Positions 3,233 through 53,185 of a stretch of DNA of 64,000 bases are shown here, piece after piece (the first letter of the stretch is position 1; the number at the start of each line of letters is the position of its first letter). This DNA is from Heyndrickxia ginsengihumi (lineage in GTDB: Bacteria; Bacillota; Bacilli; Bacillales; Bacillaceae_C). The notes under the pieces are model-generated. The model ran no database searches. It had not been told where the DNA came from and worked only from the letters and a program-made list of their open reading frames with translations. Position numbers and translations under genes: made by a program. The stretch spans positions 1-64,000 of the forward strand of contig NZ_JAAIWK010000002.1 in the NCBI RefSeq assembly GCF_011008565.1. The letters run 5' to 3'.

Positions 3233-6200
3233 GAAAAAGTCACCTGCTTACTCGCTGTAATCATTGGTTGAATAGAGAAACTCATAGACTCTAAAATTGA
3301 GAGCATGGCTGCTACCGTATCAAGTGATGTTAAACATGGGATACCACTTTCGACTGCCTCACGGCGAATTTGAAAGCCGTCCCGTTCATATTGCTGCCCC
3401 TTTGTCATTGTGTTGATCACAAATTGTACATCTCCATCACGGATACTATCTAGTATTGTTTTTTCGCCGCCACCGATTTTATCGATCACTTCTACATCTA
3501 AGCCAAATTGGCTAAAATATTGGGCCGTTCCTGTCGTAGCTAATAATGTGAAACCAATTGCTTTAAATCTTTGTGCTAATTGCAATGCTTCATGTTTATC
3601 TTTATCCGCAATAGTAAATAAAATCTTTCCATATTGCTTTAATGCTGTGCCAGCTCCAAGCAATCCTTTGTAAAGAGCTTTTTCAAAGGTACGATCTTTC
3701 CCCATTACTTCCCCAGTCGACTTCATTTCCGGTCCTAAAGTTGGCTCTACTCTTTTTAACTTCGCAAATGAGAAGACAGGTACTTTAACAAAAACTTCAT
3801 CTTTTTCAGGCTTTAGTCCTGTACCGAATCCTAAACTTTGCAATGAATGACCTAAGATTACTTTTGTGGCCAGTTTCGCCATTGGTACATCAGTGATTTT
3901 ACTTAAAAACGGTACCGTTCTACTTGAACGCGGATTTACTTCGATTACATATAGCTCATCGTTGGATACAATGAATTGAATGTTCATAAGACCGACAATT
4001 TGTAATTCTTTTGCTAGTTTCTTAATATAGTCAAACATCTTTTCTTTTAGTTTTAACGATAATCTTTGCGGCGGATATACAGCAATTGAGTCCCCTGAGT
4101 GAACACCGGCACGTTCAATATGTTCAACAATGCCCGGAACAAGAACATCCGTTCCGTCAGCGATGACATCCACTTCAAATTCATTTCCAGTTATATAACG
4201 GTCAATCAAAACCGGCTGATTCGGACTTACTTTTACGGCATGCTTCATATATTGATGGAGATCACTTTCCTGATAGACAATTTCCATTGCCCTTCCACCT
4301 AGTACAAAAGATGGACGGACGAGCACAGGATAACCAATTTCCTGGGCAATGATGATCGCTTCTTCAACAGATGTCGCTGTTTTTCCTAATGGTCTTGCAA
4401 TTTGCAATTTATTTAATGCTTCTTCAAACTTATGACGATCTTCTGCACGTTCAAGACTTTCAAGTGAGGTTCCGAGAATTTGAACACCGCGCTCTGTTAA
4501 TTGCTCTGCAAGATTAATTGCCGTTTGCCCGCCAAATTGTACAACGACTCCTTCAGGTTTCTCCAAATCGACAATATGCATTACATCTTCGATCGTCAAC
4601 GGTTCAAAATATAGTTTGTCAGATATACTAAAATCTGTTGATACCGTCTCTGGATTATTATTGATAATAATCGCCTCATATCCTGCTTCTTGGATCGCCC
4701 AAACTGCATGCACAGTTGCATAATCAAATTCAATTCCCTGTCCGATTCTAATTGGTCCTGAACCTAGCACAATAATACTTTTGCGTTTCGTGCGGATTGA
4801 CTCATTTTCGTCTTCATAAGTTCCATAGTAATATGGCGTTTCGGAGGCAAACTCTGCTGCACACGTGTCAACCATTTTATAAACTGGCTGTAAGCTACGT
4901 TCTTTTCTCCAATCATAAACCGTTTTTTCATCCGTATCCCATAGCTTCGCGATTGTTGCATCTGCAAATCCCAGTTTTTTCGCATGTTTCACGACTTCTT
5001 CATTCCAAGGAGAGGTTTGCAGTCGTGTTTCAAATTGAATAATATTATTTATTTTATATAAATAGAAAAGATCGATTTTACTCCAGTCATGAATTTGCTC
5101 GATTGTGATTCCTCTTCTTAACGCTTCAGCAATATAAAAGATTCTTTCATCGCCAGCATTTCTAATTCGCTTTTCTAGCAAATGACCATCAATTTGATCT
5201 GCATCTAACAGTTCAAAATGGGAGATGCCGATTTCAAGTGAGCGAATGGCTTTTAAAATTGATTCTTCAAAATTCCGTCCAATTGCCATCACTTCTCCTG
5301 TTGCTTTCATTTGTGTGCCAAGTCTTCGATAGGCTTGCTCGAATTTATCAAAAGGAAAGCGTGGAATTTTCGTGACAACATAGTCTAACGATGGCTCGAA
5401 ATTCGCAAAGGTTGTTCCTGTAACTGGATTTTTCATTTCAGCAAGCGTTAAGCCGACAGCAATTTTTGCAGATAATTTTGCAATCGGGTAACCAGTTGCT
5501 TTTGAAGCGAGGGCAGATGAACGACTGACACGCGGATTCACTTCAATGACATAGTAGTCAAAGCTATTAGGATCTAATGCAAGCTGAACATTACATCCAC
5601 CTTCAATGCCTAATGCACGAATAATCTTTAATGAGACATTCCTTAACATTTGGTACTCTTTATCACTTAACGTTTGGCTTGGAGCGACAACAATGGAATC
5701 GCCTGTATGAACGCCGACAGGATCGATATTTTCCATATTGCACACAACAATCGCATGATCTTCTCCATCTCGCATCACTTCATATTCAATTTCTTTAAAA
5801 CCGGCAATGCTTTTTTCTAACAAGCATTGATGAACAGGACTCTGTCTTAAACCATTTGTAACGATGTCGATCAGTTCCTCTTCCGATTTACAGATTCCTC
5901 CGCCTGTTCCACCTAAAGTATAGGCAGGACGAACGATAATCGGGTAACCTTGTTCACTTACAAACTGATACGCTTCTTCAAGAGAATGAATGATTGTGCT
6001 TACGGGAACTGGTTCCTCAATTTGTTTCATCAAATCACGAAATGCTTCACGATCTTCCGCTTGCTCAATTGCTGCAAGATTAGTACCTAATACTTCTACC
6101 CCGTACTCTTCTAAAATGCCTGTTTTTGCCAGTTCCATCGCAATATTTAAGCCTGTTTGCCCTCCTAAAGTAGGGAGGATGGCATCAGGTCTTTCGTTCC

Positions 6201-6435
6201 GAATTATTTGACTAACAAATTCACATGTTAGTGGTTCAATATATACTTTGTCTGCAATTTCTGTATCCGTCATAATCGTTGCCGGATTGGAATTGACAAG
6301 CACAACTTTATATCCTTCTTCTTTTAACGCTAAACATGCTTGTGTACCAGCATAATCAAACTCCGCTGCTTGACCAATAATAATCGGACCTGATCCGATA
6401 ACTAAAATTTTATGTATATCAGTGCGTTTTGGCAT
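3229..6435 (-). CDS. carB: Carbamoyl-phosphate synthase, large subunit
   Basis: CarB (PyrAB) makes carbamoyl phosphate from bicarbonate, ammonia and two ATP; the ammonia comes from CarA. The 1068 residues show the two homologous ATP-grasp halves ([20 protein letters not shown] near the N-terminus, [16 protein letters not shown] in the middle) and an MGS-type allosteric domain at the C-terminus, where UMP/PRPP control is known in the family. The ATG at 6435 ([10 protein letters not shown]) follows a TAAGGAGG site, so the 10-residue longer reading is rejected. It overlaps carA by 17 bases and pyrK by 4. The pyrimidine location marks it as the pyrimidine-specific enzyme. Confidence 0.96.
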
Positions 6436-9699: not shown

Positions 9700-9764
9700 C
9701 AATACCATCTCCATTCATTTACTTTGCAGCTATTTTTACTTTTTACACTTTTTTCGTAGGACCA

Positions 9765-9885
9765 TAAAAAAATGCACCCTGGATGATTCAGGGTGCATGA
9801 AAGATTGATCGGCATATGCTGATACCATTATCATGACACCCTTTTAGGCCTCTCTGGACCTCGCTTAAAAGGTGTTATTCATATG
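9765..9885 (-). promoter_or_regulatory. PyrR attenuator in front of pyrB
   Basis: On the minus strand, a PyrR-binding anti-antiterminator loop GGTCCAGAGAGGCC (9848-9861) sits on a stem formed by ACACC-TTTT and AAAAGG-GTGT. It is followed by a terminator with stem ATGCACCCT/AGGGTGCAT (9772-9798) and a run of U (9765-9771). PyrR with UMP or UTP stabilises the anti-antiterminator, so the terminator forms and pyrB expression falls. In B. subtilis this attenuator lies between pyrP and pyrB; here no pyrP separates it from the preceding one. Confidence 0.9.
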
Positions 9886-9898
9886 TTTATGACCTTAA

Positions 9899-9992
9899 AT
9901 AAAAAGCCCTCTTTGTCATAGAGGCTGACAAAGAGGGCTTAATGAAGCCACCCATCCTTTGTCAGCCTCTCTGGACTGCTTATTAAAAGGAT

Positions 9993-9994
<2 letters not shown>
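9899..9994 (-). promoter_or_regulatory. PyrR attenuator directly after pyrR
   Basis: The minus strand shows a PyrR loop AGTCCAGAGAGGCTGAC (9961-9977) flanked by ATCCTTT and AAAGGAT, whose upstream arm overlaps the end of pyrR. The terminator stem AAGCCCTCTTTGTC/GACAAAGAGGGCTT (9904-9940) is 14 perfect pairs followed by U residues. The alternative antiterminator is visible directly: AGAGGCTGACAAAG from the PyrR loop pairs perfectly with CTTTGTCAGCCTCT inside the terminator. This corresponds to the B. subtilis pyrR-pyrP attenuator, but no pyrP follows. Confidence 0.92.
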
Positions 9995-10650
<656 letters not shown>

Positions 10651-15507: not shown

Positions 15508-15780
15508 ATAAAAAAAACCTCTTCATCCCTGAAGAAGGGACGAGAGGTTCTCCCGCGGTACCACCCTAATAGACATACATCATTATGTCCGCTTAACATT
15601 CGTATCGTGAATAACCCGCTTTTATTTACTAACCATACGGCGTTCAAAGCAAGAACTCAAGGGGGATATTCAAGTTATGGTCTTTACCAAGCTTCCACTA
15701 TCCTTGGCTCGCTGAAAAAGAGTATTCATAACTTTACTGCCCTATCATCGTTTTTACGTATGAAATTGATCGTTTTAATG
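15508..15780 (-). promoter_or_regulatory. T-box riboswitch, ileS leader (isoleucine)
   Basis: The minus strand carries the T-box sequence AGGGTGGTACCGCGG (15554-15568) next to a terminator stem AACCTCT...AGAGGTT (15517-15549) followed by a U-run. Upstream are the AGCGAGCC and AGTGGAAGCTTGG features of stem I, and GAATATCCCCC (about 15661-15671) offers an ATC specifier codon for isoleucine. Uncharged tRNA-Ile would favour the antiterminator and allow ileS transcription. Confidence 0.93.
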
Positions 15781-21308: not shown

Positions 21309-22085
21309 TCATTGAATATTTTTATTCATCTGTTTAATTGCTGCTTTCTCCAATCTTGAAACTTGGGCTTGCGATATTCCAATTTCTTCAGCAACTTCCA
21401 TTTGTGTTTTTCCTTGAAAGAATCTTTTTCTAATAATCATTTTTTCGCGTTCATTCAAGCGTCGTAGTCCTTCTTGAAGAGCGATTTCCTCTATCCATTG
21501 TGTATCTTTATTCTTTTCATCGCTTACTTGATCCATTACATAAATCGGATCTCCACCATCATTATAAATAGGCTCAAATAAAGAAACAGGGTCTTGGATG
21601 GCATCCAGTGCAAAAACAATATCTTCGTGTGGAATATCTAACTCTTTGGCAATTTCATCGGTTGTTGGCTCTTTTGAAGTTGAACCCATTAACTTTTCTC
21701 TTACCTGTAGTGCTTTATAAGCGATGTCTCGTAACGATCTTGAGACTCTGATTGGATTATTATCTCGTAAATATCTTCGGATTTCTCCGATGATCATCGG
21801 TACGGCATAAGTTGAAAAACGTACATTCTGATTCAAATCAAAATTATCAATAGATTTCATTAGTCCGATGCAGCCAACTTGGAAAAGGTCGTCCACATAT
21901 TCTCCACGGTTATTAAAGCGTTGAATGACACTTAATACAAGTCGCAAGTTGCCATTAATTAATTTGTCTCTTGCTGATAAATCTCCGGCATGCATTTGTT
22001 TTAAAAGTTCTCTCATCTCCTCGTTTTTTAAAACAGGGAGTTTGGATGTATCAACACCACATATTTCCACTTTATTACGCTTCAA
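21309..22085 (-). CDS. sigG: Late forespore sigma factor SigG
   Basis: SigG directs late forespore transcription. The sequence is close to B. subtilis SigG over its length: an N-terminal KVEICGVDTSKLPVLKNEEM segment, region 2 (FQVGCIGLMKSIDNFDL, STYAVPMIIGEIRRYL), region 3, and region 4 helix-turn-helix (TQMEVAEEIGISQAQVSRLEK). The start is most likely the TTG at 22085 with GGAGGG seven bases upstream, giving 258 residues; the TTG at 22100 overlaps that site. A sigma-F/sigma-G promoter lies just upstream. Confidence 0.96.
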   Translation of the reverse strand: MKRNKVEICGVDTSKLPVLKNEEMRELLKQMHAGDLSARDKLINGNLRLVLSVIQRFNNRGEYVDDLFQVGCIGLMKSIDNFDLNQNVRFSTYAVPMIIGEIRRYLRDNNPIRVSRSLRDIAYKALQVREKLMGSTSKEPTTDEIAKELDIPHEDIVFALDAIQDPVSLFEPIYNDGGDPIYVMDQVSDEKNKDTQWIEEIALQEGLRRLNEREKMIIRKRFFQGKTQMEVAEEIGISQAQVSRLEKAAIKQMNKNIQ

Positions 22086-51391: not shown

Positions 51392-52445
<1,054 letters not shown>

Positions 52446-52535: not shown

Positions 52536-52563
52536 GTATAAATTAGCCTAAGTTGGTGATACT
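52536..52563 (+). promoter_or_regulatory. Dual sigma-F / sigma-G promoter of the csfG-like RNA
   Basis: GTATA (52536-52540) is followed after 14 bases by GGTGATACT (sigma-F -10 pattern GGNRANANT) and after 17 bases by GATACTG (sigma-G -10 pattern CATNNTA). The layout is the same as at the sigG promoter in this window. The start point would be near 52570. Confidence 0.7.
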
Positions 52564-52626
52564 GATTATAGCAACATCATTTGAAGGTGTTGTTGCCAAC
52601 CGCGGAGAAGACTTACGTTTCCCCAT
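52543..52626 (-). CDS. Possible 27-residue ORF antisense to the csfG-like RNA
   Basis: On the minus strand GGAGG stands eight bases before an ATG at 52626, which opens a frame starting MGKRKSSPRLATTPSNDVAI and ending at 52543 with TAA. The ribosome binding site is the complement of the CU-rich tract of the RNA, so it may be fortuitous. No similarity is recognised. Confidence 0.25.
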   Translation of the reverse strand: MGKRKSSPRLATTPSNDVAIISITNLG

Positions 52627-52715
52627 AAGTTCTTCCTCCGGTTTCTCCTCTCCCTTTCCCTTCTATCCTTACATAGGATATAGAAGGACCCTGCAGCATT
52701 ACTGCAGGGTTTTTT
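52570..52715 (+). ncRNA. csfG: CsfG-like sporulation small RNA
   Basis: A plus-strand unit of about 145 bases with its own promoter and terminator stem ACCCTGCAG/CTGCAGGGT (52688-52710) plus U-run, and no plus-strand ORF. It lies next to ylbH (rsmD) on the ylbG side, where B. subtilis has csfG, a forespore RNA made by sigma-F and sigma-G and conserved in spore formers. Internal hairpins are GCAACA-C...GTGTTGTTGC and a long imperfect AACCGCGGAGAAGACTTA/TAAGTTCTTCCTCCGGTT stem. Two CU-rich tracts (CTTCCTCC, CTCCTCTCCC) could pair with Shine-Dalgarno sequences of target mRNAs; that role is inference. Confidence 0.72.
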
Positions 52716-52795
52716 ATTGACCATAGATTCCAAAACAAACATCATATATAATATAGAGCGTTAGATTAGAATCCGTATTAAAGTGAGGGAATGTC

Positions 52796-53185
52796 ATGTT
52801 ACAGCAATTTATTGAGTTAGGGGAAGGGTACAGTGATTTATTTGAACTGATTGAGCTAGCCAAGTCAAATCAGCATAGACTGATACAAATGCTTGCACTT
52901 CATTCGGTTGTAAATGAAAAGCCTGTTACATCATTAGCAATTGTTCTGCAAGCGACAGATCCTGGTGAATTCCAGCCTATATATATTTGTCGAGAAGGAA
53001 TCCCTAATCCCCATGTCAATCCAAATAAAAGATATCAGCTTTTTGAACAGCTTGCAGCTGAATGTAACAAACACATTATTGAATTTGAAGTAAGATCCTC
53101 GCAAACTTTTGCAGAAAAAGCACTTTACTATCAATATTTAATTGGTATTTTACGCATGAATAACGTGATACCTCGATTAACATAA
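52796..53185 (+). CDS. Conserved-type Bacillaceae protein of unknown function
   Basis: A 129-residue soluble protein (starts MLQQFIELGEGYSDLFELIELA) with a mixed alpha/beta pattern and no membrane segment, no nucleotide loop and one Cys in a central WICREG-like position (YICREGIPNP). I do not recognise a characterised family; similar small Bacillus proteins have, as far as I recall, been auto-named methylthioribose kinase, but no kinase motif is visible. The ATG follows GAGGGAATG. It lies between the csfG-like RNA and ylbG. Confidence 0.75.
   Translation: MLQQFIELGEGYSDLFELIELAKSNQHRLIQMLALHSVVNEKPVTSLAIVLQATDPGEFQPIYICREGIPNPHVNPNKRYQLFEQLAAECNKHIIEFEVRSSQTFAEKALYYQYLIGILRMNNVIPRLT

Follow-up and report, generated by a model that had tools for sequence, protein, structure and literature searches.

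CsfG is a small RNA described in Bacillus subtilis (Marchais et al. 2011, RNA Biol 8:358, as reported by citing papers). The passages on it in PMC8216469 state that it is driven in the forespore by sigma-F and sigma-G and has C-rich regions as in RoxS and FsrA, and they describe its mRNA target and role as not identified. Those in PMC9147052 also give the target as not identified and report that disruption of the sporulation small RNAs under review, apparently with CsfG among them, caused no obvious sporulation defect. Three C-rich regions are counted in CsfG in the relevant part of PMC4409812, and the C-rich idea is thus already in print. PMC12456014 says that CsfG regulates sporulation mRNAs, its passage on this RNA citing for CsfG only the 2011 discovery paper. 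For B. subtilis, the portion of PMC3574147 dealing with this region presents a Northern blot that shows no ylbH leader, the signal coming from the reverse complement only, which is CsfG; it also gives co-precipitation of CsfG with Hfq. Despite the conservation of CsfG among spore formers, the published accounts, in the passages concerned with it, give neither target nor phenotype; the first-pass annotation of the DNA studied here had likewise called its targets not established, in agreement with PMC8216469 and PMC9147052.

In Rfam, the same sequence with an overlapping structure is filed as RF00516, the 'ylbH leader', whose model is antisense to CsfG, is labelled cis-regulatory and leaves out the first hairpin (H1). 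This strand label still colours annotation, the 'ylbH leader' being discussed in passages of papers on B. methanolicus and B. amyloliquefaciens (PMC4342826, PMC4634765).

The csfG locus and its strand

The window, i.e. the whole stretch of 64,000 nucleotides analysed (Heyndrickxia ginsengihumi, contig NZ_JAAIWK010000002.1, positions 1 to 64,000), has on its plus strand, next to rsmD, a sequence (52536-52715) that reads as a promoter of the sigma-F/sigma-G type followed by some 145 nt of structured RNA and a terminator (Table 1). RF00516 matched its minus strand at 114.7 bits (cut-off, 50; E value, 7e-24); the first-pass annotation had staked its identification of csfG on such a covariance match, and the antisense Rfam model supplied it. 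The site is intergenic, next to rsmD (ylbH) and with ylbG nearby. As far as the citing papers describe csfG of B. subtilis, the two are alike in their site beside rsmD/ylbH, strand, promoter type, C-rich single-stranded regions and conservation in endospore formers, and differ in that csfG and ylbG are separated by a DUF7147 gene in the window. We regard it as practically certain that the locus is a plain orthologue of the known csfG, and hence that the RNA is an already known one. By analogy with B. subtilis, sigma-F and sigma-G would direct its transcription in the forespore.

Table 1. Positions of csfG, its parts and its neighbours in the window
Feature	Position	Strand	Basis and remarks
sigma-F/sigma-G-type promoter: GTATA (52536-52540), 14-nt spacer, GGTGATACTG (52555-52564)	52536-52564	+	sequence match to consensus
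Predicted CsfG transcript	52571-52715	+	start inferred from -10 position, end from terminator; antisense to RF00516 match
Hairpin H1	52569-52595	+	fold; outside RF00516 model; 5/5 counted pairs changed on both sides
Hairpin H2	52598-52643	+	fold; 3' arm holds tract 1, loop holds GTTTCCCC (52617-52624)
Tract 1, CTTCCTCC (first CU tract of the first-pass annotation, CUUCCUCC)	52632-52639	+	3' arm of H2
Second CU tract, CTCCTCTCCC	52645-52654	+	sequence reading
Near-invariant 13-nt CU core, TTTCTCCTCTCCC	52642-52654	+	fold and comparison of loci; mostly within single-stranded linker
Single-stranded linker	52644-52658	+	fold
Hairpin H3, sequence-variable	52659-52687	+	fold
Intrinsic terminator: 9-bp stem (GC hairpin 52688-52710), T run to 52715	52688-52715	+	sequence, fold
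Rfam RF00516 'ylbH leader' match (antisense of CsfG)	52600-52717	-	covariance-model match
rsmD (Pfam Cons_hypoth95)	51849-52445	-	Pfam match; left of csfG
DUF7147 gene	52796-53185	+	right of csfG; ylbG (DUF2129) comes next

The fold of the window RNA exceeds chance, with a minimum free energy of -53.1 kcal/mol compared with -30.2 +/- 3.4 kcal/mol in 200 shuffles (z -6.8); linker and H2 loop are unpaired in it and tract 1 is paired. A generic sigma-70/terminator scan listed neither promoter nor terminator on the csfG strand and placed the same hairpin on the minus strand; the promoter was missed because it is not of the sigma-70 type, and the terminator probably since the scan extended the stem into the T run. 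Other RNA elements noticed in the window were three PyrR binding sites and a T-box leader (9764-10647 and 15533-15757, both minus strand).

Promoters were scored with the sigma-F/sigma-G consensus. The window promoter scored 11, the maximum, and scores of at least 10 were reached by 153 of 205 csfG-site sequences and by about 1% of mononucleotide shuffles; the 205 sequences are distinct, although not independent, and part of them were drawn from exact-pattern searches. GTATA was exact in 179 of the 205, and a terminator on the csfG strand followed within 140 nt in 183, compared with 9/205 when each was shuffled once. csfG therefore forms a transcription unit of its own, in which a promoter of the sigma-F/sigma-G type and a terminator enclose three hairpins. 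The first-pass annotation had proposed a free-standing promoter and terminator around about 145 bases beside rsmD, with a promoter of sigma-F/sigma-G type, and both proposals held: the arrangement is seen in the sequence, the fold and the RF00516 match, and the promoter type is conserved.

These data also bear on whether the element is instead a minus-strand leader that regulates rsmD (ylbH) in cis, as its Rfam label implies. Besides the strand of the RF00516 model, this reading could draw on the usual neighbourhood of rsmD: among 182 sites (loci L195-L262 left out of the count), 159 were divergent with rsmD upstream. It could also draw on one H2 position: in one register, judged by eye, alignment column 99 has T or C opposite A79, so that the csfG strand would have A-C and its complement G-U (RNAalifold pairs A79 with column 100). 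However, promoter and terminator belong to the csfG strand, an opposite-strand terminator being present in the upstream 100 nt of only 14/205 site sequences, and the H1 alignment has 31 G-U cells, which pair on the csfG strand only, compared with 7 A-C cells. In addition, six sites had csfG inverted relative to rsmD, with rsmD downstream on the same strand; in four of them (L036-L038 and L115) csfG was flipped between ylbG and rsmD. The remaining sites were 5 stop-to-stop frame overlaps and 12 without rsmD in the stretch covered, including 4 viral contigs and several others at the edge of the stretch. The antisense RNA went undetected in B. subtilis in the Northern blots of PMC3574147, in the part cited. 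On balance, the inverted loci, the promoter and terminator on the other strand and these blots exclude the rsmD leader, which we consider very improbable. Even less probable is a small protein encoded on either strand: there are short open frames on both, with an antisense GGAGG eight bases before an ATG, but one-base deletions in the TTTCCCC run (L023-L030, L049 and L050) shift the frames and the antisense ATG is absent in L023-L030. We took these shifts as refuting the small-frame readings of both strands.

Near-invariant core, hairpins and slim relatives

The 13-nt sequence TTTCTCCTCTCCC was exact in 64 less redundant sequences and in all of the 96 distinct RF00516-located loci read first, with up to three substitutions tolerated by the anchor. 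Another 24 genomes, of which 22 scored below the Rfam cut-off, gave an exact core preceded by CCGG in 23 cases and a miss in G254; one of these loci (L367) repeats an earlier one, which brings the total to 119. Overall, the core (UUUCUCCUCUCCC) was thus exact in 118 of 119 loci, the only miss being a false hit, in a count that leaves nearly half of the 216 genomes matching RF00516 aside. Of 175 long forms, 146 had a core predicted to be open, with a mean pairing below 0.5; the window value was 0.12. Tract 1, CTTCCTCC, had a mean pairing of at least 0.5 in 175/175 long forms (0.86 in the window), and of 176 long forms at least 34 had G and at least 3 had A as its middle base. Since it is the 3' arm of H2, predicted to be paired in every one of the 175 folded long forms and with a variable middle base, tract 1 mainly serves the structure, which leaves tract 2 as the near-invariant element. 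The two CU tracts that the first-pass annotation had read as anti-Shine-Dalgarno sequences therefore part company: the second is single-stranded and holds most of the core, whereas the first is a hairpin arm. With the constrained part narrowed to 13 bases and one nominal anti-Shine-Dalgarno tract found to be structural, a precise mutation can be tested.

The hairpins vary to different degrees. H1 covaries, with both sides changed in all five counted pairs. H2 is nearly unvarying within the 64 less redundant sequences; in the divergent L378, L389 and L390, its stem is replaced with pairing kept (by eye). The C-rich loop of H2 is usual, not universal, being lost in L085, L389 and L390.

Scanning of GTDB contigs for the 22-mer TTCNTCCGGTTTCTCCTCTCCC gave at least 118 matches, and among the matches listed were 22 slim forms from outside the Bacilli that lack the Bacilli-type 5' arm of H2. 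A motif test had picked 21 of these and L164 was added by eye; eight sequences were set aside by eye, namely six with a variant H2, one partial copy and one from another search. The slim forms carry the 22-mer by construction, and their remaining features were unselected. rsmD was divergent upstream in 16/22, its frame overlapped the slim form in two, and it was not in the stretch in four. Promoter scores of at least 9 were found in 18/22 (8.6% of shuffles), and a terminator, by a laxer test, in 20/22 (19% of shuffles). RF00516 reached its cut-off in none of the 14 slim loci on which it was run. In folds from the predicted start, the core was mostly open in 20/22; tract 1 was mostly open in 13/22 and covered by another stem in nine, and 'stem-less' was dropped as a description for the latter reason. 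In seven (L125, L138, L171, L175, L186, L191 and L196), the predicted RNA reaches the core after only 25-43 nt and tract 1 is open. Most slim forms come from MAGs labelled Clostridia, Bacillota or Firmicutes, and one from a named cultured strain, Fuchsiella alkaliacetigena (Halanaerobiales); the labels Acetobacteraceae and Desulfovibrio look like misbinned contigs.

If expressed, the slim relatives would mean that the RNA reaches beyond the Bacilli and that its usual hairpin can be replaced or lost. A tentative extension, which we think possible but not probable, is that CsfG is older and simpler than the Rfam family suggests, with an irreducible CU core, H2 as one of several ways of holding it, one constant forespore partner, and temperate phages that use 33 bases of it as an attachment core. 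Within this extension, some slim CsfGs would, by prediction, amount to hardly more than a C-rich 5' end and a terminator, and so strictly kept a core would point to one constant partner rather than to a changing set of mRNAs. We lowered our estimate of it slightly because nine of the 22 slim forms make another stem.

Ribosome binding sites and proposed mode of action

Binding was calculated against the start regions of 58 crude gene calls of the window, with neither target accessibility nor annotated starts taken in; the starts had been chosen with the help of the anti-Shine-Dalgarno sequence, which favours the 16S probe. The linker gave a mean of -10.99 kcal/mol on start regions and -7.51 kcal/mol on gene interiors, and shuffled linkers gave -10.22 +/- 0.45 kcal/mol on the same start regions, so that the real linker was about 1.7 SD better. 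The values (kcal/mol) on start regions for real and shuffled probes were -8.74 and -7.94 +/- 0.53 for tract 1, -8.61 and -7.08 +/- 0.66 for the H2 loop, -14.12 and -13.71 +/- 0.50 for the whole 34-nt tract, and -9.99 and -8.20 +/- 0.65 for the 16S anti-Shine-Dalgarno. The difference between start and interior was 3.5 kcal/mol for the core, smaller than the 4.8 kcal/mol of the 16S anti-Shine-Dalgarno. The preference for Shine-Dalgarno sequences is mostly a matter of base composition, because shuffled linkers bind almost as well; the core fits generic Shine-Dalgarno sequences without being tuned to them.

Complement searches were made in the 34 genomes of the family of the window organism. In its own genome, the long seed GGRGRGGRGRRR had nine matches, including csfG itself, compared with 13 for the reversed control, and none was compelling. 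The RBS-plus-start complement GGAGGAAGARCTTATG, with up to one mismatch, gave 63 rows in the 34 genomes (34 csfG and 29 others; reversed control, 9). In the 20 of these 29 that were inspected, the main recurrence was a glmS-like gene (by eye) in five genomes of one genus, absent from the window genome, and no other gene was shared by more than two genomes, both of one genus. In these five genomes (L263-L267, genus g5), the start region of the glmS-like gene, GGAGGAAAAACTTATG, was seen to fit the RBS-type complement of csfG at 15/16 bases. The pattern GGAGAGGAGAN{2,12}ATG had 92 matches and its reversed control 31, an excess that may be just what Shine-Dalgarno sequences give. Seventy of the 92 were read; one was csfG (L315) and 49 had a frame of at least 45 aa. 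Recurrence stayed within one genus, except for one ABC-transporter gene in two genera and distantly similar paralogous ATPases. None of these searches gave a target site that is conserved throughout the family. Specific pairing of CsfG with mRNA ribosome binding sites is a suggestion with only partial support: the core binds start regions slightly better than shuffled cores do, and no extended complement is conserved across the family in these searches. rRNA was rejected as a partner: against the sense strand of a 4816-base rRNA contig (16S and the following part), the 34-nt tract and the linker did no better than shuffles, 7/40 and 4/40 of which, respectively, paired as well.

By analogy with RoxS and FsrA, the likeliest mechanism is that of a trans-acting small RNA of the C-rich kind. 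The single-stranded UUUCUCCUCUCCC linker of CsfG, aided by the C-rich H2 loop, would pair with several forespore mRNAs at their purine-rich ribosome binding sites and reduce their translation, and H1 and H2 would keep the core open and stabilise the RNA. The likeness lies in unpaired C-rich stretches that could base-pair with ribosome binding sites, as described in parts of PMC4409812 and PMC8216469. It does not extend to family membership, the RsaE model reaching only 18.6 bits on the window RNA against a cut-off of 79, and CsfG, unlike RoxS/RsaE and FsrA, has a sporulation promoter and no known targets. The openness of the core in most long forms, the covariation of H1 and the conservation of promoter and terminator on the csfG strand are consistent with a csfG orthologue that acts in this way; so are, in the passages cited, the Northern signal on the csfG strand only and the Hfq co-precipitation (PMC3574147), and the three C-rich regions (PMC4409812). 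Against it are a core that seems stricter than the seeds of a multi-target RNA need to be and the reported absence of an obvious sporulation defect upon disruption, apparently of CsfG too (PMC9147052, in its passage on these RNAs). We judge that CsfG likely acts by mRNA pairing, give the stated mechanism with several forespore mRNAs an even chance, and consider the explanation as a whole, a csfG orthologue with a C-rich trans-acting mechanism, fairly probable.

CsfG might instead depend chiefly on a single universal partner (a protein that binds RNA, or the translation machinery) recognising the single-stranded core, with mRNA pairing secondary. The exact core in 118/119 loci with changing hairpins around it, the lack of an mRNA target conserved across the family and the Hfq co-precipitation in B. 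subtilis (PMC3574147, in the part cited) fit this possibility, but C-rich single-stranded tracts are typical of the mRNA-pairing RNAs RoxS and FsrA (PMC4409812 and PMC8216469, in the passages on them). Pairing with the rRNA contig was unexceptional. Moreover, we know of no partner that requires the core motif, and overall this reading seems to us rather unlikely. That CsfG is a general anti-Shine-Dalgarno decoy, damping translation as the forespore goes dormant, is improbable: the purely CU core, the forespore-type promoter and a presence tied to sigG suit it, but the core is only about 1.7 SD better than shuffled probes on start regions and discriminates starts from interiors less than the 16S anti-Shine-Dalgarno does, and PMC9147052, in the part concerned, reports disruption without an obvious sporulation defect.

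Distribution with sigG and a possible link to phages

RF00516 was found in 34/34 genomes of the family of the window organism. In a class sample of 299 genomes, it matched (E 0.001 or better) 182 of the 191 with strong sigG, in a search with stricter filters that lose weak matches, and 152 genomes reached the Rfam cut-off; strong sigG is our own threshold of E < 1e-125, and the curated cut-off gives 186 instead of 191. csfG is thus found in most sigG-bearing genomes of its class. Ninety genomes had no sigG, with one weak RF00516 match, in G254, which lacks the core and is a false hit. An intermediate sigG match was present in 18 genomes, all of one family (f13; e.g. G059, G155 and G220), and RF00516 in none of them. 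Nine strong-sigG genomes had no match, and a finer search of five of them again gave none. With three mismatches allowed, the core region had three matches in the 27 sigG-bearing genomes without RF00516 plus six others, one of them convincing (G278, one mismatch), and in f13 a single chance-like match (G133). It seems that one family with sigG does without csfG. Because RF00516 is absent from 9/191 strong-sigG and all 18 intermediate-sigG genomes, sporulation may be possible without CsfG. Additional RF00516 matches, two in G139 and others in G197 and G218, scored weakly and had no exact core, and were not accepted as paralogues. It was also noticed that sigG lies in the same window (21315-22076, minus strand), about 30 kb from csfG. 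Paenibacillus alkalitolerans (L170) has a full csfG plus a second copy of its 3' half 2.8 kb away (3413-3434 and 6260-6281), with frames resembling DNA polymerase IV and YolD (by eye) between them.

Two viral contigs, L112 (5936-5968) and L113 (1458-1492), have 33 bases in common with csfG, ATAAGTTCTTCCTCCGGTTTCTCCTCTCCCTTT. This stretch follows a tyrosine integrase gene (PF00589), of which L112 has only a 138-aa C-terminal frame, at a distance of about 95 bp. Repeats of the GCGCACAAA type flank the stretch on both sides in the two contigs. A core with flanking arm repeats and an adjacent int is typical of an attP site, and from its sequence the stretch looks like an attP for integration into csfG. 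Since it also folds into a stem and terminator, a phage-borne mimic of CsfG is the alternative suggested by the predicted fold. A search of the 299 genomes for an L113-like integrase gave two matches (G082 and G283), both far from csfG on the same contig, with no csfG-like stretch beside them and no host junction found. In a phage collection, 45 Enterococcus records matched about 26 bases of a capsid gene, mostly at 92%, and were set aside as chance. A plasmid collection gave one record, an 807-kb replicon of Bacillus velezensis. A third viral contig, L114, starts inside csfG just before the core (1-70) and keeps a terminator after it, with phage genes on the contig.
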